64,000 nucleotides of DNA from Dysidea avara (lineage: Eukaryota > Porifera > Demospongiae > Dictyoceratida > Dysideidae). Positions 1,240-58,480 of this stretch are shown here, piece by piece; the stretch's first letter is position 1; each line of letters begins with the position of its first letter. The stretch lies in assembly GCF_963678975.1 (NCBI RefSeq), contig NC_089275.1:22319977-22383976 (forward strand), in the 5' to 3' direction. Both the position numbers and the translations under genes were made by a program. Under the pieces are notes generated by a model that was not told where the DNA came from, searched no databases, and saw only the letters and a program-made list of their open reading frames with translations.

Positions 1240-1675
1240 TAGGGACCCGCCGATTATGCTCATAATTTTACCTATTATGCTGTGCTGCATTGCTCAAAAA
1301 TTTACCTATTATGCTTAAATTTATGCTCAATACTTACCTAATATGCTCAAATTATGCCCAATTATTTATGCCTCAGTTCTCATGCTCTGCTAATAATTTC
1401 CAGTTTATGGATAAATAATAAGTGGCTGAAGCACAAACTTACTTGTCAAAATGCATATTACAGAAAAGACCGATATACTCTAATAGAACAGTCAGCTATA
1501 TTAGAGTTACTGACTGTTCTATTAGAGCATATCGATCTTTCTGTGATAGCTATTTTTATAAGCAAGAATTCATACTGCCTTACAAAATATTCTACCTATT
1601 ATGCTAGCATTATGCTCAATGCTTTCAGGCACCTATTATGCTCATAATTATGCCAGCATAATCGGCGGGTCCCTA
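1240..1675. mobile_element. hAT-type MITE with 8-bp TSD
   Basis: A 436-bp non-autonomous DNA element. The terminal inverted repeats are TAGGGACCCGCCGATTATGC at the left end and its exact complement at the right. The 8-bp direct repeat ATAATGAA flanks it at 1232-1239 and 1676-1683, the TSD length of the hAT superfamily. The subterminal regions repeat CCTATTATGCTC several times. It encodes no transposase; the small ORFs inside are chance. The middle holds two opposed copies of the CTCTA-N-TAGAG module. The subterminal sequence resembles that of the element at 27337-28369, so the two are probably related families. Confidence 0.85.
1469..1537. other. CTCTA-N-TAGAG module, inverted pair
   Basis: CGATATACTCTAATAGAACA followed by GTCAG at 1471-1495 faces a complementary copy ending in ATATCGATCT at 1511-1537, making a hairpin at the centre of the hAT MITE. 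Confidence 0.8.
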
Positions 1676-1683
1676 ATAATGAA

Positions 1684-2764
1684 AGATCATGATGCTAAAA
1701 ACATATAAAAACATCAAACAAAACTTTTATTATATTAAGGATGTCAAACCCCTCAAAAATTACGAAATTTCTTCTCCCGTAAAGTTCATTAAAAAGTGGC
1801 ACAATGAATTGTGAGTCTTGTAGACAGTTTATCCACTAGATTTTTTCGTTTCATAATGATGATCTGGTCAAGGTAGTACTCTTCTGGTGAGTTTCCTCGT
1901 GATTAGAATAGCTAGGTGCATGTGTAAACCCCAATGTTAGATCCCTGCCTAGAAAATGTATGGAAGATGTTTTGTCGATCGCCATGCACAACAACATTCC
2001 AGTTAATCGATAGGTTGGTTTTCAGTTAGTGTAAGATGCAACTTGAACGCCTGTATTAGTTTCCTGGCAATACTGTGCAATTGATAATACAATACTGTGC
2101 AATTGATAATACAAAGTGACATAATCACCCATATGTCACTTGTTTTTGTTTTGTGCCATGGCTAGCTACCAATGGTGATCAATAGAGAAGTCTGGAGAAC
2201 CGCCTAGTTTGTATATTTAACAATAATTACTGGCTACTAAAAAAGCAAATGTGGCAACCCCATACTATCATTTTGTATTGTATTGTATTGTATTAGTGCT
2301 TTACAGTGACCAGCACTGAAGGCCTGACAGCAACATGTGCTGCAGCCTTAGGATTACCTAACCTAATTTCAAGGACTTAGACTTAGTTTGCAGCATTTTT
2401 TCGAGCTCTACAAGATGCTGTGGCTAAAACATGCATTTATGACACTTTTAAAATCCATTGGACATCCCTAATAGACTATATGAGTGGTCTATTTACTAAT
2501 CAAAATATGATCAATTAGTGCTGTTCAGCAGCGCACCCGAGAATTTTTGATGGTGAACAACTATCGTAAATCCCATACAAAAGTGCGGGTACAGTGCAGC
2601 TCGACTCTGCTCGAGTTATAACCCACCACTGATACTACGGACACAGCTCCTCTTTTCAGTTGTTCTGCTATACAGGCAGAAGAATTTATCGATCTGTAAG
2701 AAGTACTGGTAAGTGGTCTCAGTATTTCCTGAGATTTTGCGAATTTTGCATTTTTCTATGTACA
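1684..2764. other. Intergenic with a 22-bp duplication and a SINE tail
   Basis: No gene seen. AATACTGTGCAATTGATAAT plus AC is directly duplicated at 2069-2090 and 2091-2112. At about 2267-2345, on the minus strand, lies a 3' tail with the same ending as the SINEs elsewhere in the window (GGCCTTCAGTGCTGG, then CTGTAAAGCACTAATA), finishing in a (TACAA)n tail. The rest is unremarkable. Confidence 0.5.
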
Positions 2765-2767
2765 TTA

Positions 2768-3893
2768 GGCCACACCAAGTCAAACCTTAGTTTCTGGTCA
2801 CCCGCCCGCATGGTAAACCTGGAACCCTAGTTTATGAGGACTATTATTAATATTACAGGTGCTTAAGTGCATGTGACCCAGCAAGACACTTATTTTTTAC
2901 TGCAAAAGATCGAGATACTCTAATAGAGCAGTCAGGGATTCCAATAGAGCAGTCACACTACTCTTAACTCTAATATTAGGTATATATGCCACACTAATAA
3001 AATGTTTCTAACTATAGCTAGTTTTGTCCTTGATTATATAGCTGTTCAGATTATAACTGTTACTAATGCTTCTATAACCAAAGTAATTTCAGTAGCATTA
3101 ACTACTAGCCCATGCAGATGGGCCATAGCTTTAACTTTATAATTCAAATGTAGTCCTCTAATGATTAGTCTAGTAACTTCAAATTCCTTATCACTGAACA
3201 CTGCAGGGGTATGGAAAGCCGGCAGCATTCGGTGAGCTTAAACTTAAACTTTTCCATAACTAAAATTAGATTGGCAAGTAGAAACCCTTATAGTTTAAAC
3301 ATTCCCAGATGATCACTAAAAAACACTAGTCTGGAGCACTCAATGACTCAAAACTTTGACAGTTACTTTTCTCAAGGTTACTGAATAGAAGGCTGGAAAC
3401 ACATAGCTAATGGGTTAAGACTTCACATTTGAATGAAGAATTTCTGATGTGAAAATAGAAGTTAAATTTCATTTTGGATCATGATCATTTGAACAACTTA
3501 GCTATAAGTCATAGTAATACTTTCCTGACATAGCTAATGAGACATTTATTTCACTTGGAAAGCATAAGTAGCTACATGAGCAAAACATTTCCTATAGTAT
3601 ATTCTAAATAAATAAATAAATATACTTAAATGCTATACATCAGTGTATAGCTAGCCATGATCCATCAACAACTTTCCTAGTGCATTTTTTGCCGAAGCAC
3701 AACTACTTATGTTGTTGGTTAAGTTTGACTAAAAACAAAATCAACATGAATTTGCTAAATTGAGTAAATAATAATACCATACAGTATATTGTCACGGTAG
3801 AGTCTATAGTCCTGAAGTCCTGATCATCCGCCCGCCCGCATCCATTTGTAGGCTTGGGAGTGACCAGAAACTAAGGTATGACTTGGAGTGGCC
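2768..3893. mobile_element. PIF/Harbinger-like MITE with TTA TSD
   Basis: A 1126-bp element. Its roughly 35-bp inverted termini begin GGCCACACCAAGTC on the left and end GACTTGGAGTGGCC on the right, with matching inner blocks around CCTTAGTTTCTGGTCAC. The flanks are TTA at 2765-2767 and 3894-3896, fitting the 3-bp TWA duplication of PIF/Harbinger elements; a GGCC start also fits. No transposase ORF is visible; the 60-codon minus-strand frame inside is not convincing. A CTCTA-N-TAGAG module lies in the left third. Confidence 0.75.
2908..2956. other. CTCTA-N-TAGAG module
   Basis: GATCGAGATACTCTAATAGA then GCAGTCAG at 2908-2935, followed by a partial second unit (CAATAGAGCAGTCAC) to 2956. Inside the Harbinger-like MITE. 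Confidence 0.85.
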
Positions 3894-3896
3894 TTA

Positions 3897-12914: not shown

Positions 12915-13345
12915 CAGTAGTAGTGTATGCTAGGGATCAGGCATTCTTCTAGATGGGTTTTCTGGATCTGGAAACTATATTACAGCTAGTTAGCTTTTAA
13001 AGATCGAAAAATTGTAAGATTCTAATAAAAGCTCTGTACATCAGGAAAGTTTTATGGAAGAAAACAGTTCATGAATTTGACAAATTAGTTATATTCATCA
13101 GCTGTTAATTCATCAAATGTCAGGCGTATAATGAGTGTTAGTCTCATGTAGCCAGACCCCTTTCTTTCTTTGGTGTGGGGATTTGGAAAATAGGGTTTGG
13201 TGAACATGGTATAGCATCATCATTGGCCTATCCGGAGGTTGTGGGGATTCTATTGCATAGCTTCCAGATAGTTTAGACTTTCCTTGCCCCCACATGAAAG
13301 ATAGAAAAGAGGTTGGCTACACGAGACTAATGTAGTGTAACTATT
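12915..13345. other. Intergenic, no feature seen
   Basis: AT-rich sequence between the small MITE and the giant inverted repeat. The 60-codon frame on the minus strand has no family resemblance and is ignored. Confidence 0.4.
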
Positions 13346-13645
13346 ATCTAATCAAAAACAGCCAAACTGTAAAAAAAGGTGCAACCCCTAAAAGACCATG
13401 GTGAAAAAAGATGTGAAATTCAAGGTGGTGGCCAAGAAATGGCTGTGATGGTAGGTTAATGATAAAAATTTTAATAACGACAATTCATGTGAATTTGTGT
13501 TTCGTGACGAAATTCACCTGAATTGTTGTAATTTTACCTACCATCACAGCCATTTCTTGGCTGCCACCTTGGATTTCACATCTTTTTTCACCATGGCCTT
13601 TTAGGGGCCGCACATTTTTTTACAGTTTGGTGTTTTTGATTAGAT
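13346..13645. repeat. Left terminal hairpin of the giant inverted repeat
   Basis: A near-perfect palindrome of about 300 bp with arms of roughly 140 bp around a centre near 13497. The outer arm starts ATCTAATCAAAAACAGCC and the inner arm ends in the complement. Arms contain CAAGAAATGGCTGTGATGGT and its mirror. Confidence 0.9.
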
Positions 13646-13849
13646 ATCACTTCTTTTTGTATTTGTATACCCCAAAGGCGGCCATAGGCCGGATTTGGGG
13701 CTTTTTTAACCTATCCTTTTTCTTTACCACAGGAAGAATAAAAAGACAAAGCAGATTTTTAATACTTCAACTGTTTTTGATTTTATCAGTAATTATACAA
13801 ATTATATACATATATTTATTACATGTCTATTATTCCCTACTGGATAAAT

Positions 13850-16140
13850 TGTTCACAGCTGATCTCTCTACTAAGCAACTTGAAATGTAGCTGAACTCTC
13901 TACAGGGTGATTTGCTTGTAGCTGAACTCTACACAGGATTCTCTCTAGAGGGTGAATTGTTTCTAGCTGATCTCTTTACAGGGTGATTTGTTTGTAGCTG
14001 AACTCTCTACAGGGTGATTTGTTTCTGCTGATCTCTCTACAGTGTGATTTGTTTGTAGTTGAACTGTCTACAGGGTGATTTGCTTGTAGCTGAACTATCT
14101 ACAGGGTGATTTGTTTGTAGCTGAACTCTCTACAGGATAGTTTCTTTGTAGCTGGTCTCTACAAGGTGACTTGTTTCTAGCTGATCTCTCTACAAGGTGA
14201 CTTCTCCTACTACAGGGTGACTTGTATCTATTACAGGATGATCTGTTTGTAGCTGAAATCTCTACGGGGTGATTTGTTTGTAGCTGAATTCTGGATAACT
14301 TGTTTCTAGCTGATCTCTCTGTAGGGTAACTTGTTTCTAGCTGAACTCTCTACAGAGTGGGTTCTTTGTGGCTGAACTCTCTACAAGGTGACTTCTTCTA
14401 GCTGATCTCTCTATAGGGTGACCTGATCTCTCTGCAGGGTGATTTTTATCTTGCTGAGCTCTCTACAGGGTGATTTGTTTGTATCAAAACTATCTACAAG
14501 ATGATACCTGAAATTTCTACAGGGTGATTTGTTTGTAGCTGAACTCTCCACAGGGTGATCTGATCTCTCTACAGGGGGTGATTTGTTTGTAACTGATATC
14601 TCTACAGGTAGATTTGTTTGTAAGTGAACTCTCTACAAGGTGATTTGTTTGTAGCTGATTTCTCTACAGGGTAATTTGTTTGTAGCTTAACGCTCTACAA
14701 GGTGATTTGTTTGTAGCTGAACTCTCTACAGAGTGATGTGTTTCTAGCTGATCTCTCTACAGGATGATTTTTTTGTACCTATATTGTGTATAGTTTCTAG
14801 CTGATCTCTCTACAGGGTGATTTGTTTGTAGCTTATCTCTCTACAGGGTGATTTGGTTGTAGCTGATCTCTCTACAGTGGGTGATTTGTTTGTAACTGAA
14901 ACCTCTACAGGTTGATTTGTTTGTAGCTGAAGTCTCTACAAGGTGTTCTGTGTGTAGCTGATCTCTCTACAGGGTAATTTCACTAATTTGTTTGTAGCTG
15001 AACTCACTACAAGGTGATTTGTTTGTAGCTGATCTCTCTACAGGGTGATTTGATTGTAGCTGAACTCTCTATAGGGTGATTTGTTTGTAGCTGAACTCTC
15101 TACAGGGTAATTTATTTGCAGCTGAACTCTATGCAGGGTGATTTGTTTGTAGCTGAACTCTCTACAGGATGGTTTCTTTGTAGCTGAACTCTCTACAACT
15201 TGACTTGCTTCTAGCTGATTTCTCTAGATGGTGACTTCTTCTAGCTGATCTCTCCACAGGGTGACTTGTATAGCTGAACTCTCTACTGGGTGATCTGTTC
15301 ATAGCTGAACTCTTTACAGGGTGTTTGTTTGTTTGTAGCTGAAATCTCTTACTTCAAACTGATTTCACTGTAGGGTAACTTGTTTGTAGCTGAACTCTCT
15401 ACAGGATAGTTTCTTTGTAGCTGAATTCTTTACAGAATGATTTTTTTGTATGATTTTTTTTGTTTGTACCTGAACTTTCTACAGGGTAATTTGTTTATAG
15501 CTGAATGCTCTGCAGGGTGATTTGTTTGTAGTTGATCTCTCTACAGGGTTTCTTTGCAGCTGAGATCTCTACAGGGTGACTTCTTCTAGCTGAGCTCTCT
15601 CTTGTTTCTAGCTGATCTCTCTACAGAGTAACTTGTTTGTATAGCTGAACTCTTTACAGGGTGGTTTTTTGGTTGCTGAACTCTCTACACGGTGAATTGT
15701 TTGTAGCAAACTTCTCTACAGAGTGACTTGTTTGTAGCTGAATTCTCTTCAGAATGACTTACTTGTAGCTGAACATTATATAAACTATGAGGTGACTTGT
15801 CTGTAGCTGAACTCTCTACAGGGTTACTTGTTTGCAGCTGGTCTCTATAGGGTAACTTGTTTGTATAGATGAACTCTCTACAGGTAGTTTCTGTGTAGCT
15901 GAACTCTCTCCACAGTGACTTGTTTGTAGCTGAATTCTCTAGAGAGTGTAGCCGAACTCTCTACAGGGTGCATGACTTGTTTATAGCTGAACTCTCTTCA
16001 GTGTGACTTGTAGTGTTCTGAATCACTACAGCGACATATTTGTCTATAGGGTGACTTGCTTCTTGCTGAACTGTCTATAAGATTAACTGTTTGCAGTTGA
16101 ACTCCCTACAGAATAACTTGCAGTGTAATAGAATTATATA
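13850..16140 (+). repeat. 31-bp satellite array, left arm
   Basis: About 2.3 kb of a tandem unit of 31 bp, consensus CTCTCTACAGGGTGATTTGT then TTGTAGCTGAA. Many units are diverged, shortened or fused, for example with CTTCTTCTAGCTGATCT variants. The array ends in the CTCTA-N-TAGAG module at 16161. It is non-coding. Confidence 0.95.
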
Positions 16141-16160
16141 ATGGAGTAAATAAATTAGCT

Positions 16161-16204
16161 GAATGCTCTATTAGGGTGACTGTTCTATTAGAATATCTCG
16201 ATCT
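16161..16204. other. CTCTA-N-TAGAG module, inner edge of left array
   Basis: GCTCTATTAGGGTGACTGTT then CTATTAGAATATCTCGATCT. It is continuous with the satellite: the GCTGAA and AGGGTGACT segments of the array unit are retained on either side of the TATTAG core. Confidence 0.8.
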
Positions 16205-16270
16205 CGCATTTGCTACACGGAGTTGGCTTTCGAATCATAACTCAGTGGTTTGTAATCCGATTCTTCTGTA

Positions 16271-16863
16271 GATTGATTGATTGATTTTGAATTTTACCTC
16301 AAACCAGTCAGCAATACCATTCTTCCCTGGCAGAGGAGCAAAGACACAACATAGGTACATACATAATACAACAGAATACATACATTAACACATGTACAAC
16401 CAAACAATTACAACATAAGCACACAAACTATTACACACACAAATTACTATGTAAATCAAAATTAACACATATATATAAATAAATCGTCTTTGAAGGTTGG
16501 TGAAGTCAAAATATCATAAGGTACTGTATTCCACCAGTGAATTGCTTTAAATCAAAAAAAACGCAGAGTAAAAGAAAGATGACATCTAGGTGGCTGAGCA
16601 AATATATAGCTGAGTAGTTCTAGTGACATATTGATGTTGGCGTCCAAACTTATTATAATAGGTGGAACCGAGTGGAACACGTTGCGGCTGAAAATACTGA
16701 TGGTGCATAGCACAGAGTGAGCAATACTGAATCTCACTACATGGTGGTAACCACTGTAAAGAATGGAATTGATGTGTGACGTGGTCGCACCTCCGAAGGC
16801 CCAAACAAAGTCGAACAGCTCGATGTTGTAAACATTTCAAGCGATTGATACTAGCCGGTCACC
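16271..16863 (-). mobile_element. LINE 3' fragment inserted in the giant inverted repeat
   Basis: A 593-bp minus-strand insertion with a (AATC)n-type tail at 16271-16285 and RT C-terminal blocks (LQHRAVRLCLGLRR, FHSLQWLPPCSE). TCTGTA at 16265-16270 and 16864-16869 is the TSD. The corresponding place in the right arm, near 19387, lacks it, giving an empty site. Internal stops make it dead. Confidence 0.85.
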
Positions 16864-17032
16864 TCTGTACTGCTGCAAGGACTTTCTATGAAGATTATTC
16901 CAGCTATACATCGATTTTCAGCTTATTGCTTTAAGCGGTTTGCCTAGTAGGCATAAAAACTAATACTTTTTTATTCATAAAAATCGATCGCGTAATTTTG
17001 ACACAGGTTGGGCTTTGTGTTATATTTCCATG

Positions 17033-17952
17033 CAGGGGCGTAGCTAGCCAGAAGGTGATGGAGGGGCAGGCATGCCCCCACAAAACACTCAAAATCATTC
17101 ATGATTGCAAAAACGGCTAATGACCCAATGGTGGGCTAGCCAACATACGGTGTTGTATTATTACAACCTAAATAACTAGCTACGTAACTACTTCAGCACT
17201 GACTGCTTCCAATCGAGGTAGCTATATTCGTCGAGCATCATCGCACGTGCCACAACTGTACTCCAACAAATTCATCCACAGTCCGGTAGAGTTAATACTT
17301 CAGTGCAAATACAAGTTACTTTACGTTAGCCACAGCCTGTGCTGCAGTCCTAGAACTCCGCTGACAGGATGACGTATTCACTCACTTCACTCGGCGAAAT
17401 TCAAAAGCCATGTATTGCACGAAATCCCACCTGTCTTGCTATCAGAACTTGTAAGCTTGACTGATCCACCTGACTGACTGACAAAGTAAAAACAGACTGC
17501 ACTGCCGTACGTACAAAGGTCCAGTGTGATTGACTCGATAAAATAAACTTGGTGGCTACATTTATTTAGCTAACACTTTATCACCTCGTAGGCAGTAGGT
17601 TCGTAGCGTCATCTGGTCTCCTTTGTCACTTGTGAGTTGTGACTCCTGCCGCGGAGAAGCGGGTCACTCTTTTTAGATTCAAAAATGTTCTATCACGCGA
17701 GTTATCTAGGCTAAATATAGAAGTATGTCTCTAATATTTTCGTTCGATGGATTCAACAGCGAATTGAATGTTGTGTGTGCGCATTCACTAGCAACCCCTG
17801 GTGATACCGCGTAGTAGTGTACATAATTTACAGTCATTTGCGTGTCAGTTTAATACTGGTAAACTTGTGACGAAGGTTAAAAAAAAATCATTTAGCTAGT
17901 GATGGGGGGGGGGGCAAATGCCCCCCCTTGCCCCCCCTTAGCTACGCCTCTG
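17033..17952. mobile_element. hAT-like MITE, CAGGGGCGTAGC ends
   Basis: A 920-bp element starting CAGGGGCGTAGCTAG and ending TAGCTACGCCTCTG, with G-runs and C-runs just inside the right end. The flanks TTTCCATG (17025-17032) and TCTCCATG (17953-17960) form an 8-bp TSD with one mismatch. The right arm of the giant inverted repeat has the uninterrupted site near 19231. Non-coding. Confidence 0.8.
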
Positions 17953-19453
17953 TCTCCATGGTCTTTATCTTGGCTCCTTTCAAACCACTAAAAGGCACTC
18001 CTACGATGGTTACTCCATCTACATAGCAATTTTCAACTCATTCCATGAAGCGGTTTACTCTGTAGGCGTGACAACAAATCGATCTTGTTTTACGCGAATA
18101 ATTGGTCATAAATCCTTAACCGTTCATCCGATTTACACCAAATTTGATACTATAGGATTCACCTTTGGACTCCCTTTCTGTGTGCCAAATTCCAAGGAGA
18201 TCGGAGTACGCGTTGCGGTTTATAACAATTTTTGCAAGTGTGCGAAAACACGAAGAATAATAATAATAATAATAAAAAACGAAACTTTGGCTGTTCGTAT
18301 TTCGGAAAATGGCTTGAGCGATTTTCTTCAAATTTGGAATGTGAACTCCCCTAGCTGGCGGGCAACGCTGCAGCAAATTTGGTTCCAATACGATAAGGTA
18401 TCACAGAGATACAAAGGTGTGAAAATTACATTTCCTTTCTTCCTGTCACGTCAACCACGGTGTGGCGCGCCGGCTTCTTGTGCCGCATGACACACTATCA
18501 TGTGTCTTGATGTATTGCATGGATGTGCGTAGCTGAAAAGCAGTAAATTTTATACTGAAGCAGTCTCCCTCTTAAATGAAAAAATAATAAAAGTATATGT
18601 TTAAATCTGAGTTTAGATCTATATGATTTCTTGATTTTCAATTAATTTTTGTAAAAGCTGATGGTTCATCATCATCAAGACACACGGTAGTGTGTCGTGC
18701 GGCCCAAGAAGCCGGCGCGCCACACCGTGAGTATATTTACAGGAAGAAAGAAAACGTCATTTTCACACTTTTGTATCTCGGTGATAGCTTATCTGATTGA
18801 AATCAAATTTGCTGCAGAGTTGTCCGCCAGTCTAGGGGAGTCTACATTCCAAATTTGAAGGAAATCACTCAAGCCATTTCCGAGATATGAGCAGCCAAAG
18901 TTTCGTTTTTTTTTCTTCGTTTTTTTTCTTCTTCGTCTTTTCGCACACTTGCAAAAATTGATATAAAATGAAAACGCGTACTCCGATCACCTTGAAATTT
19001 GGCACACAGAAAGGGAGTCCAAAGGCGCATCCTAGCATCAAATTTGGTGCAAATCCGATGAATGGTTCAGGAGTTATGACCAATTATTCGCGTAAAACAA
19101 GATCGATTTGTTGTCACGCCCACAGGGTAAACCGCTTCATGGAATGAGTTGAAAATTGCTATGCAGATGGAGTAACCATCGTAGGAGTGCCTTTTGGTGG
19201 TTTGAAAAGAATCGAGATTAAGACCACGGAGATATGATACAAAACCCAACCTGTGTCACAATTACGCGATCGATTTTTAGTAATAAAAAGGTATTAGTTT
19301 TTACGCCTACTAGGTAAACCGCTAAGAGCAATGAGCTGAAAATCGGCGTATAGCTGGAATAATCTTCATAGAAAGTCCTTGCAGTAGTATAGAAGAATTG
19401 GATTACAAACCACTGAGTTATGATTCGAAAGCCAACTCCGTGTAGCAAATGCG

Positions 19454-19500
19454 AGATCGAGATACTCTAATAGAACAGTCACCCTAATAGAGCATTCAGC
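19454..19500. other. CTCTA-N-TAGAG module, inner edge of right array
   Basis: AGATCGAGATACTCTAATAG then AACAGTCACCCTAATAGAGC. Mirror of the copy at 16161-16204 in the other arm. Confidence 0.85.
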
Positions 19501-19559
19501 TAATTTATTTACTCCATTATAGAATTCTATTATATTACAAGTTATTCTGTAGGGACTTC

Positions 19560-21140
19560 AGCTGCAAACAGTTAATCTTATAGACAGTTCAGCAAGAAGC
19601 AAGTCACCCTGTGGAGAGTTAAGCTACAATTATATCACTGTAGAGATTCAGAACATTACAAGTCACACTAAAGAGAGTTCAGCTATAAACAAGTCATGCA
19701 CCCTGTAGAGAGTTCACCTGCAATTAAATCACTCTCTAGAGAATTCAGCTACACACAAGTCACTGTGCAGAGAGTTCAGCTACAAACAAATTACCCTGTA
19801 GAGAGATCAGCTACAAACAAAACACTTTGCAGAGAGTTCAGCTACAAACAAATCAATCTTTAGAGTGATCAGCAACAAGCAAATCAACTTGTAGAGAGAT
19901 CATCTAGAAACAAATCAACCTGCAGAAAGATCAGCTACAAACAAATCAGCGTGTAGAGAGATCAGTTACACACAAATCAACCTGTAGAGAGATAAGCTAG
20001 AAACAAATCACCCTGTAGAGAGTTCAGCTAAAACAAATCAACCTGCAGAGAGATCAGCTACAAACAAATCACCTTATAGACAGTTCAGCCACAAACAAAT
20101 TACCCTGTAGAGAGATCGACTACAAACAAATCAACTTGCAGAGAGATCAGCTACACACAAATCAACTTGTAGAGAGATCAGCTAGAAACAAATCACCCTG
20201 TAGAGAGTTCAGCTACAAACAAATCAATGTGCAGAGAGATCAACTACAAACAAATCACCCTGTAGAGATATCATCTAGAAACTAGACACAATGTAAGGAG
20301 TTCAGCTACAAGCAATTAATACACCCTGTTGAGATTTCAGCTAGAAACAAATCAACCTGTAGAGCGATCAGCTAGAAACAAATCACCCTGAAGAGAGGTC
20401 AGCTACAAAAAATCACCCTGTAGAGAGATCAGCTAGAAATAAATCACCCTGTAGAGACTTCAGCTAGAAACAAATCAACCTGCAGAGAGATCAGCTACAA
20501 ACAAATCACCCTGTAGAGGGTTCAGCTAAAACAAATCAACCTGCAGAGAGATCAGCTACAATCAAATCACCTTATAGACAGTTCAGCTACAAACAGATTA
20601 CCCTGTAGAGAGATCGACTACAAACAAATCAACTTGCAGAGAGATCAGCTACAAAAAAATCACCCTGTAGAGAGATCAGCTAGAAACAAATCACCCTGTA
20701 GAGACTTCAGCTACAAACAAATCAACCTGCAGAGAGATCAGCTACAAACAAATCACCCTGTAGAGAGATCAGCTAGAAACAAATCACCCTGTAGAGAGAT
20801 CAGCTAGAAGAGGTCACCTTGTAGAGAGTTCAGCTACAAAGAAACCATCATGTGGAGAGTTCAGCTACAAAGAAATCATCCTGTAGAGAGTTCAACTAGA
20901 AGAAGTCACCTTGTAGAGAGTTCAGCTACAAAGAAACCATCATGTAGAGAGTTCAGCTACAAAGAAACCACCATGGATGTAGAGAGTTTAGCTGCAAACA
21001 AATCACCTGTAGAGAGTTCAGCTAGAAACAAATCACCCTGTAGAGAAATCAGCTAGAAGAGGTCACCTTGTAGAGAGTTCAGCTACAAAGAAACCATCCT
21101 GTATATAGTTCAGCTATATTTTAAAGTCACCCAGTAGAGA
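19560..21140 (-). repeat. 31-bp satellite array, right arm
   Basis: The same 31-bp satellite in reverse orientation (TTCAGCTACAAACAAATCAC then CCTGTAGAGAG). It is about 1.5 kb, roughly 0.7 kb shorter than the left array. The 68-codon frame inside is an artefact of the repeat. Confidence 0.95.
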
Positions 21141-21363
21141 GATCAGCTGCTAAAAAATATCCTGTGGGGAATAATGGGCATGTAATAAATATATGTATAT
21201 AATTTGTATAATTACTAATAAAATCAAAAATAATTGAAGTATTAAAAATCTTCTATAAGTTCTTTTCTTCTTCCTGTGGTAAATACAAAAACACATGGGT
21301 TAAAAAAGCCCCAAAGCCAGCCATAGGCTGGTTTTGCAGTATACAAATACAAAAAGAAGTGAT

Positions 21364-21689
21364 ATCTAATCAAAAACAGCCAAGCTGTAAAAAAAGGTGC
21401 GGCCCCCAAAAAGGCCATGGTGAAAAAAGATGTGAAATCCAAGGTGGCGGCCAAGAAATGGCTGTGATGGTAGGTTAATGGTAAAAATTTTAATAACGAC
21501 AATTCAGGTGAATTTTATGCCACTTGGTCTTGGCATCAAATTCACCTGGATTGTCGTTATTAAAATTTTTACCATTAACCTACCATCACAGCCATTTCTT
21601 GGCCGCCACCTTGGATTTCACATCTTTTTTCACCATGGCCTTTTTAGGGGCCGCACCTTTTTTTACAGCTTGGCTGTTTTTGATTAGAT
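21364..21689. repeat. Right terminal hairpin of the giant inverted repeat
   Basis: A 326-bp palindrome with arms of about 155 bp, closely similar to the left hairpin. The centre lies near 21526. It contains CAGCCAAGCTGTAAAAAAAG just inside each end. Confidence 0.9.
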
Positions 21690-23689
21690 TTCCTTCCATC
21701 AAATTTCCTGTTGTACAGTACTCCAAAAGTCTAACTGTTGAAGATATTACCAATTGTACAACTTTCAGTGACCATGCAAATGCCATAAGTAAATTACTTT
21801 CTTTTGTTGTAAATTTTTCTCTTCCAGGCACCTCTAAAAATAATTGTTATTTCAATTTTTAACTCTGCACTGGCTTTAAGTCCAGGAATGGTAAGATTCA
21901 ACAGTGAAATGATTTAATAGGGTTATTTTACTCATGGATAGTAACCATGATTGCTTCAAGTGAAACCCCTTTTCAAATGTAAAGTGTCAGAGAAACCATG
22001 GACCATGACTATTACACTATGCATAAGTAAAGATAAGTTTCTTCTACTTTGGCCAGGAGATACATAGAGAAAATTTTCTAAAACTAGGATCATGGAAGTT
22101 TACCCGATCATTTCATGCCAAGAATAACAGCCTAGCATATACAGACTAAAGTCATAGACAAAACTCTTGTCATTCACTGACAACAGTACAATGTGATAGA
22201 AGCTGATATAAACTGCTAGGACAACAAAACAGAGCAACACAAGACAGCTTAGTGTATTGAAATTCCATGTTTAAATCTGGATTCTATATGACGAAAAACC
22301 TGCAGTCTCGCTTTTCCTTTTTGACAGCTTCACCTTGGCAGTACTGCATGGTTAGGTATATCAAAATGCTACCCAAACCCTTCCAAAAAGTTTCTTCAAC
22401 TTGTAAAATTTATTTAATATTGACTAGCTAACTGACTTACTAACTAACTGACGCCTTCAGCCAAGCAATACTCAAGGCTACAGGCTTGATTTCTTCACTA
22501 CTCAACGTCGCTTTGGCTCAATTGCAGACTTGCCTTTTTGCCAATCCCATGCAGTAGCTCATGCATCATAAACTTACCTTGGTCCTCCTTCGTGTCTCAT
22601 GTCTTTCTCCACTACCACGTAGGTGTTGATTAACAGTAATGTGTCATGGCTTCAGTGCTTTATTTTCCATAGTGTGACTGATTCATTGCAGAGATACTTC
22701 TCATACTGTTCTTCATTTGAAATGCTGTATAATGGCCATTAATGGGTGGAATATTAATATTGCTGAAACTGAAGCAGAGGGGCAGTAGTAACAGTAGCAA
22801 AGCACAATATAATTATTGAATTTTGACATGTGTACGTATTCACTGATATATCTTCAGGTGTAGGAATGCAACCTCCCTTGTTTCACTACTTTTATTTCTG
22901 TGATCCCTAAAATTCTTAATTTTTCCTTATACTTTTAGTTATATATCACTATGTCAGAATAACAAAAGTCGATGTTGTCAAAAATTGCACAACTATTGCA
23001 CTATTCCGCTCTACTATTAGTTACTCAAGATATTTTAGACTACTCGAGACGTTTTCACTTGAGGGATTTTCAACTACTGGAGAGATTTTTTTACTACCTA
23101 TTTGAGAGATTGACAGAAGATTCTACTTACTTGAGAGATTCTACTTAAGATCCTATTTATTTGTGATACTTTTAAACTATATGCTTGAACAATGTTTAGA
23201 TGTATACTCACTTTGTACTATTATTATAAATTACCTGTTATTGATACAGCTATAGTTGTGTATGACATAGAGTGAGCACTTAATCCTTTTTTAAAAAATA
23301 CTTTAGTTATTTGGGTTAACTAACAGAATTTACAAGTACAAGGATCATTGCAATAAAAAGTGCCACTGGCTCCTAAAGCCCTATCTTCTTTAGCCAAGCT
23401 CATATACTGTAGTAGGGTTATTAAATTTGCACTTAAGGTAATGATCCTCTTTGTTTAAGCACTTTTAAGAGTATATGTTACAGTACTCTTGATCGTAGTG
23501 ATCCCTAGCCTGTAAAATAAAATAGATCGATGTTTCCTTGCACTTGTCACAAGTATGCAGTAGCATTAATTATGCATTAAAATGATAATAATGGTATCTA
23601 CAATGGCACATGTTACCATTATGGATGAATTATACTTTAGATTACAGTACACATGCACTAGGAAGTTAGAGCTGATTCGCTGTACTTGT
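21690..23689. other. Intergenic, no supported gene
   Basis: A 2-kb stretch without a recognisable gene. A frame from 21690 to 21862 has ordinary composition but starts inside the hairpin, so it is not called. Loosely repeated TTGAGAGATTCTACTT-type segments occur at 23020-23165. Nothing else is clear. Confidence 0.35.
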
Positions 23690-23995
<306 letters not shown>

Positions 23996-27796: not shown

Positions 27797-27846
27797 TGAC
27801 TGCTCTATTAGAGTATTTGAGTGTTCTATTAGAGTATATCGATCTT
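27797..27846. other. CTCTA-N-TAGAG module
   Basis: TGACTGCTCTATTAGAGTAT then TTGAGTGTTCTATTAGAGTA and TATCGATCT. Two direct units, inside the hAT MITE. Confidence 0.9.
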
Positions 27847-28318: not shown

Positions 28319-28369
28319 TTGGTGACCTATTATTCTCAAGATTATGCCGGCATAATAGGCGCAGGCCTA

Positions 28370-29073: not shown

Positions 29074-29110
29074 AAAATGCACTTCACTGCTCCACATTCA
29101 CACTTTCAAC

Positions 29111-36121: not shown

Positions 36122-37642
36122 GTTGAAAGTGTGAATGTGGAGCAGTGAAGTGCATTTCTATATATAGGTGGACCTAGCTCTGTACTGAGAAGAAATTACC
36201 TATACAATCTTAACTTGATATGTATTGAGATCACAATACACAGAACTACATAGTATGTAATATGAAACTTCATTTCCTGCATTAATTGCATCATGTGTAA
36301 AATGTTAAACAAGTTCATGGATTCATCATGTATAGTCAATGTGTATATTATCTTCTGTACCGTACAAGTATGCAGCCATAAGTTAATTGAATATAATACA
36401 GAAATTAAGAATTAAATTCATGTTCAATTGCTTAATTACTCTCCACAAGTTTATACCCAAATACTGCATACCTACAGCATTTTGCATTTATGTGATCAAA
36501 GCGATTAAGGAAATTTAAAATTCAAATTGCAATAGCATACTAAGTCTTGTTTATGTGTTATAGTTATGTATGCATCATCACTGTTACGGTAGTAACTATA
36601 TATAGCTAGCTAGTTGTAGGAATTATAGATACCAGGTTGTTTCAGACCATATTTACAGAACCCTAGCATATAATGTGTGTTGGTTGCATGTACACACTAC
36701 TGCATGTATATGCCAGTTCAGCTTTTAATTCAATGCTGTCAAATCATCCAATAATTCTGTTTTCCTTAAAGGCTTTGGGTTGGCTCCATCAACACCCTGA
36801 TAATTGGTAATGTCTATTATGTTCAAGTGCTGCTTTACTTGATAACAATTGTGCTATATAAACTGTACTAATGATATGGGCTACAAATTATCATTTTTCA
36901 TTGCTGAGAACATTTATATAGAAGCTTATATGCTCTCATTTGGTGTGATATTTGTGAATTACATCATCACAATCAACAAGATGTAGGCCCCACACATACA
37001 AACACCAGATACTGATAAATATTTGAACTGAAATTACATAATATCAAGACATGTTGGATATTATAATGATGATTATGTAATACGAATAATGATGTTTAGT
37101 TTACACTACGTGTGGGAAACTATACAATTATTAGTAGTAACATATTTATTATATTGAGTGAATGTCCATTGCACCGTATTTTATTTATTTATTTTTAAAT
37201 TGCTTTTTAATGTAGACAAGGCCTGCATTAAAGGTCTATGGGCAACTAATGCCCACAGCCAGAAAATGTATACGTACAACTTACATTTACAATTGAATGT
37301 ATAAAATTACAATCAAAGTTAAGCTAGCTGGCTAGAGTTATTACATACATTTTACGTTTGATATGTGCTTAAACAATCCTATAATAAAACAAATACAAGA
37401 GTATTTAATAATAAACTTACTTACATAAGTACTTATTTTAAAAGAGAGAGCGAGAAAAAAAAATTACTAATTACTGCTGAAGTTTGGTGTGCGGGGAGAC
37501 TTGGAGCAGGTACTACAAGGGCAAACAAAGTGCAGGCTGTGAGGATTGTCAGAGTCAAAATTATTTGTAAAATGCTGCCAGAAGATCTTGAGTAACTGTG
37601 ATTTAATGGCAGAAAAAGGTTGACTTAAGTCAAGTACCAGTA

Positions 37643-44704: not shown

Positions 44705-44913
44705 CAATGGCGGATCCAGGATGGGGCATTTGGGGCAAATTCCCCCCCCCCTCTCCACCTTGTGGAGGAGCCAGCCATGCTTCTGATTAAAACAGCTAGT
44801 AAATTTTATGTCAGGCCAACCGAGATCAGTTTAAAACTTATGAAAATATGCACATTTTACTAGCATTTATTACAAATTCACCCTGAGACCAAAGCGAACC
44901 GAAGTCAAACTAA

Positions 44914-45272
44914 GGCCAATGAAACTTGATTACCAGTTTCTCGCTCAGATTTTTAAAAATTTGATGCGGGCGAGCGGTTATTATTCATTATTCATTATTT
45001 TTCCAAAAGCACAACACACATCCAAACATGAAGATTTCTGCCAAAAAAACAGTGAGATCTACACTGATTATTCTTGCATTAAATAGCTAAAGTACGTTAC
45101 TAATCTATAACAAGTGATTTTTCCATTAGAGTATAGCTGATTGCTCTATTAGAGTAAAAGTGACTGTTCTATTAGAGTATTTCGATCTGAAATACCAATA
45201 ATGAAATTCCATGCGGGTGTATCAAAAGCATGCGGGCGATGACGCGAAACTGCTAATCAAGTTTCATTGGCC
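44914..45272. mobile_element. Harbinger-like MITE with TAA TSD, nested
   Basis: 359 bp with ~30-bp TIRs starting GGCCAATGAAACTTGATTA and ending in the complement. TAA is duplicated at 44911-44913 and 45273-45275. The element at 37643-38146 has the uninterrupted site (GTCAAACTAACTGTAAAA in inverse), so ends and TSD are exact. Carries a CTCTA-N-TAGAG module. Confidence 0.92.
45124..45188. other. CTCTA-N-TAGAG module
   Basis: Three units: CATTAGAGTATAGCTGATTG, CTCTATTAGAGTAAAAGTGA and CTGTTCTATTAGAGTATTTC then GATCT. Inside the nested Harbinger-like MITE. Confidence 0.88.
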
Positions 45273-45573
45273 TAACTGTAAAATAGTCACTCAGCACCTT
45301 CGTGCGTACTAAGCGCCTCTAAAAATAATTATCGTGTTGCTGTTATTTAAGACATTCAGAGCCTTTAAAACAGTTTCAGTTAAGACTTCACAACCAATCT
45401 GAAAAGGTCAAAATGGCAAATATCAACAGTGAGACACCACTAAGAGGTGATTATTTGCCGCTTTAAAAAAGCAGCACTGAACTATAGAGAATATGGTTCT
45501 CCCCATGCATGCAACCACCTACAACTTACCCTATTTGTGCCCCTCCCCTAGCCAGCTCCTGGATCCGCCCCTG

Positions 45574-49917: not shown

Positions 49918-50714
49918 TTAAAAACATTTACAGAACTTTTTCATATCATCTTTGTCCAGCAACATGCACAGAATAGCACTTCTTTTGCAAATTCCCACAC
50001 AGGTGCTAAGTAAAATACTATGCTCTCCAAGCAAATATATTACTAAAGCATAAACCACTCCACTTGCCAAACTGGCTGATGACAAAATCACTGTAATTTT
50101 TAGCAAGCATTTATGACTGCTATCAATTTGTGTGTTGTTGTTGTTCCGATAAAATGTGGGGCAAAATACCACTACAAACTGTGAAGACCATCTGAACAAT
50201 AACTGTATTGGAATATAATGCTATACCAATGTATTGTATGAAAGGAGTAACTCTATACACATCAGAGAGTGTTAGACAATTTCCAGCAGGAGACACATAG
50301 CTTGCTTCCTGAAGTACAATGATCAAAACTCTGCTGATATTGAAAATGATAATGACATCAACCATCACAGCTATTGATCTCCTAAACAGTTTCCACGTAG
50401 CTTCCTCAGATAGTACAGAATACAATTTATAGCAGCGGTAAAATGTGTAGAATATTGTAAGGAAAATTTCAGTTTCAATAATGTTTACACAAGCTTGTAA
50501 ACATTATCAAAATAGTAATGCAAAATCCATTTGGAGCCTGCATTGTATGCCTTATGAGTATATTGATATATACAATGAGATGCATTGCTATCCACAATAT
50601 TGTACAACCAGGAGCAAATGAAATGGAAGTGTTGAGTAGGGAATTGTACAGTTTATAAGATCCAGTGGACATCCATTAGAGTACTCCAAATGATAAACTT
50701 GTTAAGAGACACAT
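49918..50714 (-). pseudogene. 7TM receptor pseudogene, ectodomain and TM1 deleted
   Basis: Minus strand. The start (MCLLTSL) and NGCPLD-like region remain, then sequence jumps from CTIPY to the TM2 segment (TSISFAPGCTILWIAM). The ectodomain core and TM1 are missing. A frameshift follows. TM3-TM5 are open at 50123-50425 and TM6-TM7 with KKFCKCF at 49918-50100. The same deletion and frameshifts occur at 62337-63129, so the gene was already broken before that duplication. Confidence 0.85.
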
Positions 50715-53224: not shown

Positions 53225-53646
53225 TTATTATAATATGTACTCGCCCTCTGGCCTCTTGTGTACACATCTAGCAATGCATATGTGTCTGTGCGCTGGTGCA
53301 CTTTATTATTTGCTTTACACTAAAACTAAGGATCTGTTGGTTACTTTTACCAACAGCCACAATTTACATTGAAAGTAACTGTATAATATGTATAGACATT
53401 AATTTTACTACTTGTAGTGTGCACCTATTAGGATAGTCAGATACTTTAATAAAGCAGTCAATTGCATATAAGGGCTTGTGGTAATCCTAATAGACCAATC
53501 ATCATCCCTATAGCCTTTTGTAATTTCATGCATGACAGACCTTAGTAGTCAAATCATAGTAATGCTTTGCTAATACCCATGATTCTCCCTCTGTGAGAAA
53601 AGCTAAGGAATCTGTACTAAGTAGCCACAGAATGTTGGAGAATGTG
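53225..53646. other. Intergenic
   Basis: No supported gene. At 53430-53465 there is a degenerate relative of the CTCTA-N-TAGAG module (TCAGATACTTTAATAAAGCA). Confidence 0.4.
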
Positions 53647-53810: not shown

Positions 53811-54950
53811 TTAAACACATTTACAATATTTTTTCATATCATCTTTCTTTAGCAACATGCAAAAAATAATACTTCTTTCGCAAATGTACACAAAAGTACC
53901 AAGTAAAATGCTATACTCTCCAAGCAAATTTACTGCTAAACCGTAAACCACTCCACTTGCCAAACTGACTGATGACAAAATTACTGTAATCTTTAGCAAA
54001 TTACATTTATGACTGCTATTAGCTAGTGTGGAGTTATTGTTCTTTGATAAAATGTGGAGCAAAATGCCACTACAAACTGTGAAAATAACTTGAACAATAA
54101 CTGTACTGACATATAATGCTATACTAATGTATTGTGTAAAGGGAGTAACCCCCATCATATCAGGAAGTGCAATACAATATCCAGCTGCAGTCACATAGCT
54201 TGCTTCCTGAAGTACGATGATCAAAACTCTGCTGGTATTGAAAATAATAATGACACAAGCCATCACACCTATTGACCTCCAAAACAGTTTCTGTATTGCT
54301 TCCTCAGATAGTACAGAATACAGTTTATAGCAGCGGTAAAATGTGTAGAATATTGTAAGGACAATTTCAGTTTCAATAAAGTTTGCACCCTGAAGCAAGC
54401 CATTAAAAATCAGTAAAACTGTAATGCATACTCCATTTGGAGCCTGTATTGTATGCTCAGTGAGTATATTGATAAATAAAACAAGGTGCGTTGCCATCCA
54501 CAATACTGTAGACACCAGGAGCAAACGAAATGGAAGTGTTGAATACCTCTTCTGTTTTATTATCACAGTTAACATCAATATGTTTACAGCAAACCCTATC
54601 GTGAGAAGTGCGTAATTTGCAACTATGAGAAACAAACTTGGTTTAATGTTGTGATATTCTTGATCACAATAACTGCTGGTGTTATCATTGACCTCCAGTA
54701 GCTGCAGTGTAGTGGTTGTACAGCCCAGATGATATTGATCATTATAATATGTAATATACAGTTCATCTCCAGTCTTTATGATCTTTACTGTACAGTTATC
54801 AACATGACAATATTGTGTAGCATCAATTATCACAACAGCACTGTTATTGATGTCATCATAAGGAATTGTACAGTTGATAGGATCCAGTGGACATCCATTA
54901 GCTGCAAGGAATTCTCCAAGCAACAAACTTGTTATCAGGGATAGGAACAT
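53811..54950 (-). CDS. Intact single-exon 7TM receptor
   Basis: 379 residues. Signal peptide MFLSLITSLLLGEFLAA. The ectodomain has the same six cysteines as the 29111 gene, including CPLDPINC, YCHVDNC and HLGC. Seven helices, the TM3-top cysteine (NGVC), the ECL2 cysteine (AAGYC), FYTFYRCYKL at the end of TM3 and the C-terminal KKYCKCV are all present. It is very close to the frameshifted copy at 34990-36121 and lacks that 8-base deletion, so it shows the ancestral frame. TATA box at 54989-54997, 39 bases before the ATG. Ligand unknown. Confidence 0.87.
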   Translation of the reverse strand: MFLSLITSLLLGEFLAANGCPLDPINCTIPYDDINNSAVVIIDATQYCHVDNCTVKIIKTGDELYITYYNDQYHLGCTTTTLQLLEVNDNTSSYCDQEYHNIKPSLFLIVANYALLTIGFAVNILMLTVIIKQKRYSTLPFRLLLVSTVLWMATHLVLFINILTEHTIQAPNGVCITVLLIFNGLLQGANFIETEIVLTIFYTFYRCYKLYSVLSEEAIQKLFWRSIGVMACVIIIFNTSRVLIIVLQEASYVTAAGYCIALPDMMGVTPFTQYISIALYVSTVIVQVIFTVCSGILLHILSKNNNSTLANSSHKCNLLKITVILSSVSLASGVVYGLAVNLLGEYSILLGTFVYICERSIIFCMLLKKDDMKKYCKCV

Positions 54951-54988
54951 ATTGAAAGTATGAATGTGGAGCAGTGAAGTGCATTTTC

Positions 54989-54997
54989 TATTTATAG
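54989..54997 (-). promoter_or_regulatory. TATA box of the 7TM gene
   Basis: CTATAAATA on the minus strand, upstream of the ATG at 54950, in the same position as for the 29111 gene. Confidence 0.6.
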
Positions 54998-55173
54998 GTG
55001 CACCTAGCTCTGTACTAGAAGAAATTACCTATACAATCTTAACTTGATATGTATTGAGATCACTATACACAGAACTACATATATAGCACGTAATATGAAA
55101 CTTCATTTCCTGCATTAATTACATCATGTGTAAAATGCTAAACAGGTTCATGGATTCATCATGTATAGTCAAT

Positions 55174-55803
55174 CCTGTGCCAAAAACAGCCCAGCTGTAA
55201 AAAAAAGGCGAGGCCAAGAATGCACACGTACACGTTCATGGAGTAACTACAACCAAAAGACATGATATCAAAATCTGGCCAAGAAAGCATTTACAGTATA
55301 GGTACTTTTATGCATTCATTTTCTATATGCTTCACATTATCACATCCAGCTAGCTGTACATGTGTGCTTGCAATATAAACAAACAATACTACAGAGACGA
55401 TAAAAGATGATCACACTGCATTGTTACCAAAATTAATTTAACTAAAAATTTACAATTGGTTTCTACTTGGCCATCTTTTTGCACTGTATATTAAAATAAA
55501 AAGATGGCCAAGTAGAAACCAATTGTAAATTTTTAGTTAAATTAATTTTGGTAACAATGCAGTGTGATCATCTTTTATCGTCTCTGTAGTATTGTTTGTT
55601 TATATTGCAAGCACACATGCACAGCTAGCTGGATGTGATAATGTGAAGCATATAGAAAATGAATGCATAAAAGTGCCTATACTGTAAATGCTTTCTTGGC
55701 TAGATTTTGATATCATGTCTTTTAGTTGTAGTTACTCCATGAACGTGTACGTGTGCTTTCTTGGCCTCGCCTTTTTTTACAGCTGGGCTGTTTTTGGCAC
55801 AGG
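55174..55803. repeat. 630-bp hairpin with CAAAAACAGCC termini
   Basis: A near-perfect palindrome with ~300-bp arms and a short loop around 55485-55501. The ends read CCTGTGCCAAAAACAGCC and the complement; just inside is AGCTGTAAAAAAA. The same terminal motif caps the hairpins at 13346 and 21364, and both are followed by GATATCACT. It interrupts copy B relative to copy A. No TSD identified. Confidence 0.9.
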
Positions 55804-55867
55804 ATATCACTACTTTTTGTTGAATGGAGAACATACACTGTTACTGAAGATTGGCTATTACTTATAT

Positions 55868-56255
55868 CATAGGCGGTGGGGGGGTGGGGGGCTAGGGGGC
55901 TGAAGCCCCCCCCCCCCCTTTGGTCTGCTGAGGGGAGGCTTAGCCCCCCCCCTCAGAATGATATCACACCGAAATTATCTTTCTTGAAGTGGGGTTGAAA
56001 GCCGTGATAAAGATCGAGATACTCTAATAGAGCAGTCACTCTAATAAAGTAGTCAATGTGTAGCGAGCTATGTAAGGATTTTTATGTAGTTTATCAGCTA
56101 GAGATGGTAGCTGGTGAGGTGGAAAACTCTTGTCAGTTGGTTGTGACCTTTTTTTTTTTTTTTTTTTTTTTGGTCTCACCTTACCAAACTATAGAAATAA
56201 GTCTGGGTCAGCCCAGCGGAGCCCCCCCTCATATCAACTACTTCCTCCGCCGCTG
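55868..56255. mobile_element. Probable MITE, GGCGGTGG ends
   Basis: 388 bp between CATAGGCGGTGGGGG and CCTCCGCCGCTG. G- and C-runs lie inside the ends, and there is a long T-run near 56150. Flanks ACTTATAT and TTTGATAT match at 5 of 8, so the TSD is uncertain. Ends resemble the element at 56870-57154. Contains a CTCTA-N-TAGAG module. Confidence 0.6.
56011..56056. other. CTCTA-N-TAGAG module
   Basis: AGATCGAGATACTCTAATAG then AGCAGTCACTCTAATAAAGT. Inside the MITE at 55868-56255. Confidence 0.85.
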
Positions 56256-56869
56256 TTTGATATGTACTTAAACAATCTTACAATAAAAAAATACAAGTGT
56301 ATTTAATAATAAACTTACTACTTATTTTAAAAGAGAGAGCGAGAAGAAAAATTACTAATTACTGCTGAAGTTTGCTGTGCGGGGAGACTTAGAGCAGGTA
56401 CTACAAGGGCAAACAAAGTGCACTGTGAGGATTGTCAGAGTCAAAATTATTTGTAAAATACTGCCAGAAGATCTTGAGTAACTGTGATTTAATGGCGGAA
56501 AAAGGTTGATTTAAGTCAAGTACCGGTAGACTGTTGTAGGTTCTTGGTAATCTGTTGAAGTAGAAGTTACTTTGTTTGTTGGATGATGTAAAATTGTGTT
56601 GAAGCTTGTTGCTGGTGGAGGTTCTGGTAGGATTGTGACAAAAGTTGACATAGTTATGTAAAATCTAAGCTTATATACAAAAGTACACATTTGTTAAACC
56701 TACATGATGAATAACATATAGATGGTGATATGGCTATATCTTGTGATAGACAGCAGTTTAGCTACAGCAAGCTGACATTACACAGTAAGTGTTAAACTGT
56801 ATTAAACTATTACATGTAATTATTACCTTTAATAACAGCATGACTCCATTACATAATCACAGGGACGGT

Positions 56870-57154
56870 GGAGCAGGCCAAAGAGTGAGGGGGCCAGGCC
56901 AGCTGTAAGTTGAAGACCAAAAAAAAAAAAAAGGTCACAGCCTGCTGACAATAGCTGCTCTCCACCAATTATATCTCCTTATTTATAACTACGCATACGT
57001 AGCTAAGTAACTTGCTACACTGCTCTCTGAATACTGTGACTGCTCTATTAGAGTATCCAGATCCTGACTGCTCTATTAGAGTATCTCGATCTTTTCTTAC
57101 AAACAGTGTCCCATAAAAGTGGGTGGGCCATGCCCCCCGTCTCCACCGCCTATG
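56870..57154. mobile_element. hAT-like MITE, CAGGGACGGTGGAG ends
   Basis: 285 bp; ends CAGGGACGGTGGAG and CTCCACCGCCTATG. The 8-bp TSD CATAATCA/CATAATTA (56862-56869, 57155-57162) has one mismatch. Copy A near 38483 and the 26.8-kb copy read through without it. Contains a CTCTA-N-TAGAG module and an A-run. Confidence 0.85.
57036..57093. other. CTCTA-N-TAGAG module, tandem
   Basis: TGACTGCTCTATTAGAGTAT then CCAGATCC, then a second TGACTGCTCTATTAGAGTAT ending CTCGATCT. Two nearly identical direct units inside the MITE at 56870-57154. Confidence 0.9.
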
Positions 57155-57607
57155 CATAATTATAAATATATGTAAGTAAGTCTAGATCTGTCCTATAACT
57201 GCATGTAGCAGGGTATGAATATAGAGCCCACAATTTACGGTATAATGCATTCAACATGGCTCAGTTGACTCATGCATGAATTGCTGCAGATGTTAGTACA
57301 CATACATGTCAAGTGATTACATAATAACCAGAGAATCTGAAACTGTATAGCTAATGTAATAGTTACATGTCAATGTATACGTCAATGTATACGTCAATGT
57401 TCACATTACACTTTGTCTGGGCTAGTAGACAAGTGTAAAATGAACATCAGTGTTGACATTACATAAATTTTCTATTATGATATGATCCTTCCTTTACCAC
57501 TAAGTCTGTATTCCTGAAGACTGTGCCATCTCTTGAGGATGCTAACTCCCCATCGAATGATTGGGTGGTAGATGCACAGATGCAGAAAAGAGTGTTCCTT
57601 AGTTACG

Positions 57608-58480
57608 CAGGGGCGGATCTAGGATTTATAGGAGGGGGGGGGGGGGGGGCTAACTCAAGGTACTAATCTCTTGGGTAGAGGTGTGCGAAGTACACTTCCC
57701 AGCATGCAAAGCATGCTGGAACTAGGGGGGTCTGGGGGCATGCTCCCCCAGAAAATTTTCGAAAAATAGATACTAAAATACTGCAATTTGGAGACATTTC
57801 CACATAAAATTCATAATATTTTCTGCCTGTAGATATTTTATATACTGCCTTTAGATTATAGGTATGGCTCTCTGAAGCATTTTGCTAATGGAAAAGTTTG
57901 GGTAGGTACAGACAGCCAAGTACATGATGCACCCCTCTCACAATTGCACAACACTGAATAAGTGCATGTTAGAATAATAATGTTGAAAGTGGAAAATTTT
58001 GAAATTTGAACAATACAAGATTGAATCTGAGAGCATTTTCAATGGAAATTGTGTACCTGAATTAAGTATTGTCATACATATTAACTACACAAGTAGATGA
58101 ATGAAGCCCTTTAAACAGACCAATGCACTTCATTGTATGTATAGGTGCAGGCAGATTTGGCATAACAGAACCAACTACATGTTTCCAGTGAATGTTCTAT
58201 TAGAGTAGTTAGCTGACTGCTCTATTAGAGTATCTCGATCTTGTACACCTCCAATGCTGATCCGGGTCCTTGTTGCATAAACTTTAGCATAAATCCACTG
58301 ATAATACCTTGGAAAGATGTTTATAAGGTAGTTTTATGAGTATTTGTATTATTAGTGATCATATAATTATGCTAAGACAAAATTTCATTATAATACTCAG
58401 CATATTGATCAAGTAAAGCCTAAATATGAAGGGGGGGGCTTCAGCCCCCAAAGCCCCCCCCCCCCCTGGATCCGCCCCTG
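57608..58480. mobile_element. CAGGGGCGGATC element with 5-bp TSD
   Basis: 873 bp; ends CAGGGGCGGATCTAGG and CTGGATCCGCCCCTG with long G- and C-runs inside. TTACG is duplicated at 57603-57607 and 58481-58485. Copy A reads through (GCTATGTATATTTGCAC near 38910), an empty site. Non-coding; module at 58189. Confidence 0.88.
58189..58242. other. CTCTA-N-TAGAG module, tandem
   Basis: GTGAATGTTCTATTAGAGTA, then TGACTGCTCTATTAGAGTAT ending CTCGATCT. Inside the element at 57608-58480. Confidence 0.9.

Follow-up and report, generated by a model that had tools for sequence, protein, structure and literature searches.

The closest known parallel to the module reported here is a group of coral miniature inverted-repeat transposable elements (MITEs), the CMITEs. 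The original account (Wang et al. 2010, PMC2872659) describes an internal region of 75 bp that is better conserved between families than their terminal inverted repeats (TIRs), suspected of a role in transposition and of unknown origin, together with tandem arrays, TTAA target site duplications (TSDs), a link to piggyBac-like elements and ~1,600 copies in one coral. A short module in a 64,000-nucleotide stretch of the sponge Dysidea avara (C4:22319977-22383976, strand +; hereafter the window) is likewise internal and common to transposon families with different TIRs. In contrast to the CMITEs as that account presents them, its carriers have duplications of 8, 5 or 3 bp or TA rather than TTAA with piggyBac-like ends, fall into several end types and share a core present in more than 22,000 exact copies.

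Two-part motifs within MITEs have also been reported from C. elegans, where PMC9757741 describes the HIM-17 m1m2 pair as long and bipartite, with a few favoured spacings and orientations; it lies mostly in copies of the CERP2 and CELE2 MITEs, is bound by a THAP-domain protein and is used as a germline promoter. The sponge module is similarly a compound of two parts that lies in MITEs and has preferred spacings. However, CERP2 and CELE2 are interrelated, whereas the carriers of the sponge module have the ends of different superfamilies. According to PMC12221973, placozoan loop anchors contain a transposon-borne Mutator-TIR motif, a mark of genome architecture in an animal of an early-branching lineage, and the ctenophore CTEP1/CTEP2 motif contains CpGs and is bound in a methylation-sensitive manner. 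The sponge module also contains a CpG, a single one; unlike the placozoan motif, which is part of the TIR of one transposon, it is internal and common to many. These motifs from other animals exemplify the uses to which a host can put such a site. In the open-licence literature we found no paper on one cassette shared across transposon superfamilies, and a full-text search with six stretches of the module and of the satellite described below returned none.

The conserved core of the module is an asymmetric 28-mer, TGACTGYTCTATTAGAGTATNTCGATCT, which occurs exactly 22,428 times in the 550.8-Mb genome (108 contigs) and not once in its backward form. The 11-mer CTCTANTAGAG is found 47,783 times against 486 for its backward control, an abundance far larger than the window by itself showed. 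Within the window the same 11-mer occurs 19 times at ≤1 mismatch, compared with a mean of 1.99 and a maximum of 6 in 100 shuffles. In a 264-kb sample comprising 20 chosen 10-kb pieces of C1-C3 and the window, a 19-bp unit at ≤4 mismatches was matched 94 times versus 2 in reversed sequence; these matches form 58 clusters (28 single, 24 double and 6 triple). The core had no match in viral contigs or prokaryote genomes. A 72-bp query against phages returned three records with 25-bp matches at E 0.6, which we take to be chance.

Aligning nine copies on their last unit (with one arm of the giant repeat left out and two of the nine drawn from the palindrome of carrier A) defines a shared stretch of 28 bp from TGACTG through GATCT, on either side of which agreement drops. 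The preliminary description had listed nine sites in the window, and all nine hold the module as described there; the palindrome it proposed is another matter. Position 7 of the core, the first base of that palindrome, is T in five and C in four of the nine aligned copies, so the symmetry is imperfect in about half of them and the invariant part is the asymmetric 28-mer. Among 20 family representatives, the full unit is preceded by one or two partial units at spacings of 17-32 bp in 17, and two units are indeed the usual form (14 with two, three with three, three with one). Across the 264-kb sample and these representatives the spacing is flexible, mostly 17-25 bp. An array of four or more tandem units with a 17-bp period reaches up to the tail at L045:1450-1528 and illustrates how the module can expand.

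The carriers comprise ten families, A to J, with TIRs and duplications of 8, 5 or 3 bp (some assigned by inspection) as expected of MITEs, together with a Tigger-like element (K) and a giant inverted repeat (L). Those present in the window, leaving aside K and L, are 295 to 1128 bp long (A, B, D, E, F, I and J). Family A (ends TAGGGACCCGCC, 8-bp duplications) is represented by a hAT-like MITE at 1240-1675 with the TIR TAGGGACCCGCCGATTATGCT and the 8-bp TSD ATAATGAA, and further copies lie at L001, L036, L041 and L046; it holds two opposed module copies with tails outward at 1467-1538, within a 78% palindrome at 1438-1566. Family B (TAGGCCTGAGCC, 8 bp) is a hAT-like element at 27337-28369 (TAGGCCTGAGCCTATTATGC, 8-bp TSD ATCATTAG) with two units 21 bp apart at 27797-27845 on the plus strand. 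Family D (CAGGGGCGGATCTAGG; 5-bp duplications TTACG and TCCAC) occupies 57608-58480 with the TSD TTACG and two plus-strand units 25 bp apart at 58189-58241, and has copies at L032 and L039. The sites near 56011 and 57036 both hold the module as previously noted, but belong to two separate elements. One is a copy of family F (CAGCGGCGGAGG; 8 bp, TGTACAAG) at 55868-56255, with ends CATAGGCGG...CCGCCGCTG, two minus-strand units 17 bp apart at 56011-56055 and a weak duplication; another copy, in L013, has TGTACAAG at both sides by inspection. The other is a copy of family E (CAGGGGCGGTGGAGC; 8 bp, GGGAGTAA) at 56860-57154, with ends CAGGGACGGTGGAGC...CCACCGCCTATG, an 8-bp duplication CATAATCA/CATAATTA (one mismatch, by inspection), two plus-strand units 28 bp apart at 57037-57092 and relatives in L038, L050 and L023.

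The Harbinger-like carriers have 3-bp duplications. Family I (AGGCCACACC, TTA) lies at 2767-3894 with ends AGGCCACACCAAGTC and two minus-strand units at 2907-2955, and family J (AGGCCAATGAAAC, TAA) is a 361-bp MITE at 44913-45273 with three plus-strand units 23 bp apart at 45115-45188. Families C (CAGGGGCGGATCCAGAG, ~343 bp; 5-bp duplications AATCA, GGCAC and TGTAT), G (CATAGGCGGATCT; 8 bp, CCTAGAAA) and H (CAGGGCCGTAGCC; 5 bp, ATGAA) complete the set. Carrier K is a putative Tigger/pogo-like element by its CAGTG-type ends, with TA at both sides in the window copy and in L023, though not clean in L006. The window copy is decayed, spans 31900-32037 and contains two decayed units from 31943; the module relative near 31948, previously placed outside any element, therefore lies within one. 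The other weak relative named earlier, near 53430, is a decayed module with 6 mismatches at 53433-53460 on the minus strand and was not placed in any carrier.

The end types among these carriers are TAGG..ATTATGC, CAGGGGCGG-like, CAGGGCCGTAGCC, AGGCCA and CAGTG... Families C to G may form one broad group by their similar first bases, perhaps with H, and A and B another, which reduces the kinds of ends from ten to four to six. The 58 young sites (≤2 mismatches; 64 before duplicate removal), compared by BLAST at 1e-8 after masking of the module, sort into 20 homology components, 12 of them singletons. Single linkage joins C with E and places the hAT-like families A and B in one component; since two components are arms of A and L052 probably belongs with C, the number is about 18. 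The sharing of the module by elements with different ends, as the preliminary description had it, is thus upheld and extended genome-wide.

How often copies were bracketed by element ends differed with their age. The first exact 28-mers listed on C1 gave 24 loci at 22 distinct places, and a scan for three end types found matching ends with a duplication around 11 of the 22 against 2 of 300 random places; the end motifs derive in part from those loci and from the window, and the L032 case among the 11 depends on a run of C. By inspection and homology, the other 11 comprise L050 (family E, GCTTGCAA at both sides), L049 (hAT-like, no duplication), L030 and L052 (family C, truncated or partial), five members of the giant satellite repeat family (L034, L035, L040, L044 and L045), L031 (a repeat with undefined ends) and L029 (the edge of the repeat seen at L031). 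On this partly visual assignment, the young copies appear to be located within or at repeats; duplications accompany 12 of the 22. A pair of end motifs, drawn partly from the tested sites, bracketed 9 of 29 young and 1 of 23 old sites, compared with 15 of 600 random places. A scan of the 264 kb for TIRs with TSDs, blind to the module, returned 17 candidates versus 1 in shuffled sequence. Seven of the 17 hold units, but one is the module pairing with itself, leaving 6 of 16; five of the six candidates in the window contain the module, the sixth being an interior piece of the giant repeat.

Family J shows how the module moves. The best-scoring 40 of 1,038 candidate places yielded 42 matches over positions 1-361, 40 at 98-100% identity and two at 95 and 90%, near-identical copies of the kind typical of MITEs; two of the places coincide with listed module places. 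Because the matches span 344-364 bp, they leave no space for loss of the module, which must have travelled as part of the element in these best-scoring places, a choice that does not extend the statement to every copy. A direct repeat of ≥5 bp at the module edges was found in 0 of 20 family representatives, and the left edge, unit number and spacing vary among them. The module thus lacks a target duplication of its own and does not resemble a separately inserted sequence with defined ends.

We read the module as a compound DNA-binding cassette, repeatedly gained by non-autonomous DNA transposons and kept as an aid to mobilisation or against silencing, and regard this reading as evenly balanced between right and wrong. 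The cassette would consist of one or more partial units TGACTGYTCTATTAGAG(TA) followed by a full 28-bp unit ending TATNTCGATCT, and would be bound by a sequence-specific host protein or by a transposon-derived protein taken over by the host. Founders of many non-autonomous families may have acquired it independently; the bound protein might then prevent its carriers from being closed or silenced in germ cells, or might in some other way help foreign transposases to reach them, so that these families spread well. The exact, asymmetric 28-bp core with a shorter second copy at a flexible distance suggests a DNA-binding protein of several domains and a partner site for cooperative binding, and flexible spacing is easier to reconcile with protein sites than with a folded RNA or a recombination cassette. 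Carrier ends that call for different transposases argue against dependence on any one transposase, unless ends were exchanged, and what the carriers have in common would most simply be a host factor. Of the roles raised in the preliminary description, a cassette for regulation, mobility or escape from silencing is the one we prefer, while its symmetric dimer site finds no support.

A broader and more doubtful version of this proposal is that the cassette confers mobility or anti-silencing independently of transposase, the 28-bp site of one host factor having established itself as a frequent internal component of successful non-autonomous DNA transposons, regardless of superfamily; the genome would thereby have been seeded with tens of thousands of identical putative binding sites, perhaps organising chromatin or germline expression. 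The success of MITE families is an open question usually answered by transposase and end sequence. A cassette common to superfamilies would, if real, point to a shared host-side requirement of cut-and-paste elements that is testable with one motif and one protein, and would offer a route by which a genome gains a uniform network of more than 20,000 long exact binding sites.

Several results weigh against the cassette proposal. Only 1 of 10 TIR and TSD candidates from random sequence contains the module, and a clean Harbinger-like MITE at L019:23-468, with a 35-bp TIR and a TTA duplication, is without it and thus offers a natural control. In 200 kb of random genome, the generic TIR and TSD bracket showed no enrichment for sites of all ages (1 of 32, versus 14 of 400 random places); the earlier claim that all clear copies lie inside elements consequently stands for young copies but not for all ages. 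Flanks with another copy in a 288-kb sample (25 of 50 young, 11 of 36 old, 410 of 1200 random) speak against the sweeping form in which the module is always in elements. The conservation of the 28-mer within families speaks for the proposal, with identity at 835 of 881 aligned bases (95%) compared with 6,816 of 8,596 (79%) in the flanks, but the 32 pairwise comparisons share copies and are not independent, and the contrast is overstated because the sites were chosen by their likeness to the consensus. Finally, the preliminary description had named a single family with rearranged ends as an outcome that would undo its claim, and this is partly the case: families C and E have ~200 bp in common at ~71%, despite duplications of 5 and 8 bp, and A and B are one component.

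This last observation makes passive capture the leading rival: C and E demonstrate that elements with different duplications can have an interior in common. MITEs formed by aberrant gap repair would copy nearby DNA between two ends, so that an abundant module would often be captured and its shared units would promote template switching between families, with no benefit to the carriers. The great abundance of the module and the MITEs that lack it agree with this account, as does the shared C and E interior with the module in it. Capture should bring varied flanks, yet 20 separate components remain with the module masked and the core is exact; the conservation of the 28-mer above its flanks, biased as that comparison is, also counts against it, and we judge passive capture unlikely. 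Considerably less probable is a relic of common descent, in which one ancestral element spread, its ends were swapped for those of other superfamilies and the cassette alone was left. The order of units and tail is identical in the families compared, C and E resemble one interior with changed ends, and window carriers D, E, F, I and J have the tail directed at their nearer end. Against this are the hAT-like, Harbinger-like and Tigger-like ends, the different duplication lengths and the little other sequence in common. Carrier A, moreover, has both tails outward, that of B points toward the slightly farther end, and Tigger-like L006 and L023 seem contrary by eye; as several of these families are related, tail polarity is a lead only.

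The preliminary description had also suggested a tiny element inserting into MITEs. Such an element, self-mobile or spreading as a gene-converting repeat, would enter any sequence, most often MITEs because these are common, and would explain the very high copy number and the many sites not placed in a repeat. However, the missing edge repeats, the variable left edge, unit number and spacing, and the spread of family J at full length with the module inside make it very improbable. We give equally little credence to a module acting as RNA, whether targeted by small RNAs, serving as the promoter box of a short transcript or used as a 3' splice site (the units have the form TGAC-pyrimidines-TAG). 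Its 28 bp are near piRNA length and its letters are branch-point-like and acceptor-like by inspection against a consensus, but no Rfam family reached the gathering threshold in the window, and both module orientations occur within carrier A and within the giant repeat. Rfam and tRNA scans of the window gave nothing.

CpG observed/expected is 0.35 and TpG 1.32 in the 264 kb, as heavy methylation of a genome would produce. Allowing TpG in place of the CpG in an exact 28-mer yields another 2,254 copies beside the 22,428. In 18 sites carrying 1 to 3 mismatches there are 28 changes, of which 11 affect the two CpG bases, 9 of the 11 as transitions. In decayed copies the CpG is the first part to change, so that it looks methylated in dead copies of the module.

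The giant inverted repeat (carrier L, 13941-21148) has 31-bp satellite arrays at 13941-15948 and 19581-21148 and carries the module in each arm, with two units at 16157-16204 (plus strand) and two at 19454-19501 (minus strand), 62 bp or two periods past the last satellite-like unit. The local unit of carrier L is closer to the satellite unit than letter shuffles are (p 0.0005), whereas the general module consensus reaches only p 0.07; derivation of the satellite from the module is thus supported by sequence likeness for the giant repeat's own unit and weak for the general consensus. The repeat is flanked by short hairpins at 13345-13646 and 21361-21692 (13345-21692 in all), both with ATCTAATCAAAAACAGCC arms, and has relatives in L011, L016 and L026.

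Genome-wide, hAT transposase domains (PF05699) are abundant, and in 150 scored of 1,875 candidate places a number lie in open frames of >600 aa, some equal in score and frame length, from which hAT elements may have been recently active in this genome. Of six window open reading frames (ORFs) compared with Pfam, one matched Fibrinogen_C and one RVT_1. A locally expanded family of receptor-like ORFs with long and fragmentary members in both orientations (28925-30247, 32208-33347, 35198-36157, 50123-50503, 53811-55028 and 62548-62925) has the look of membrane receptors by eye, and neither of the two members compared with Pfam matched a family. Immediately upstream of one receptor-like ORF, 55172-55805 forms a near-perfect hairpin of another foldback type, with 281-nt arms that are 98% complementary and a 17-nt loop.

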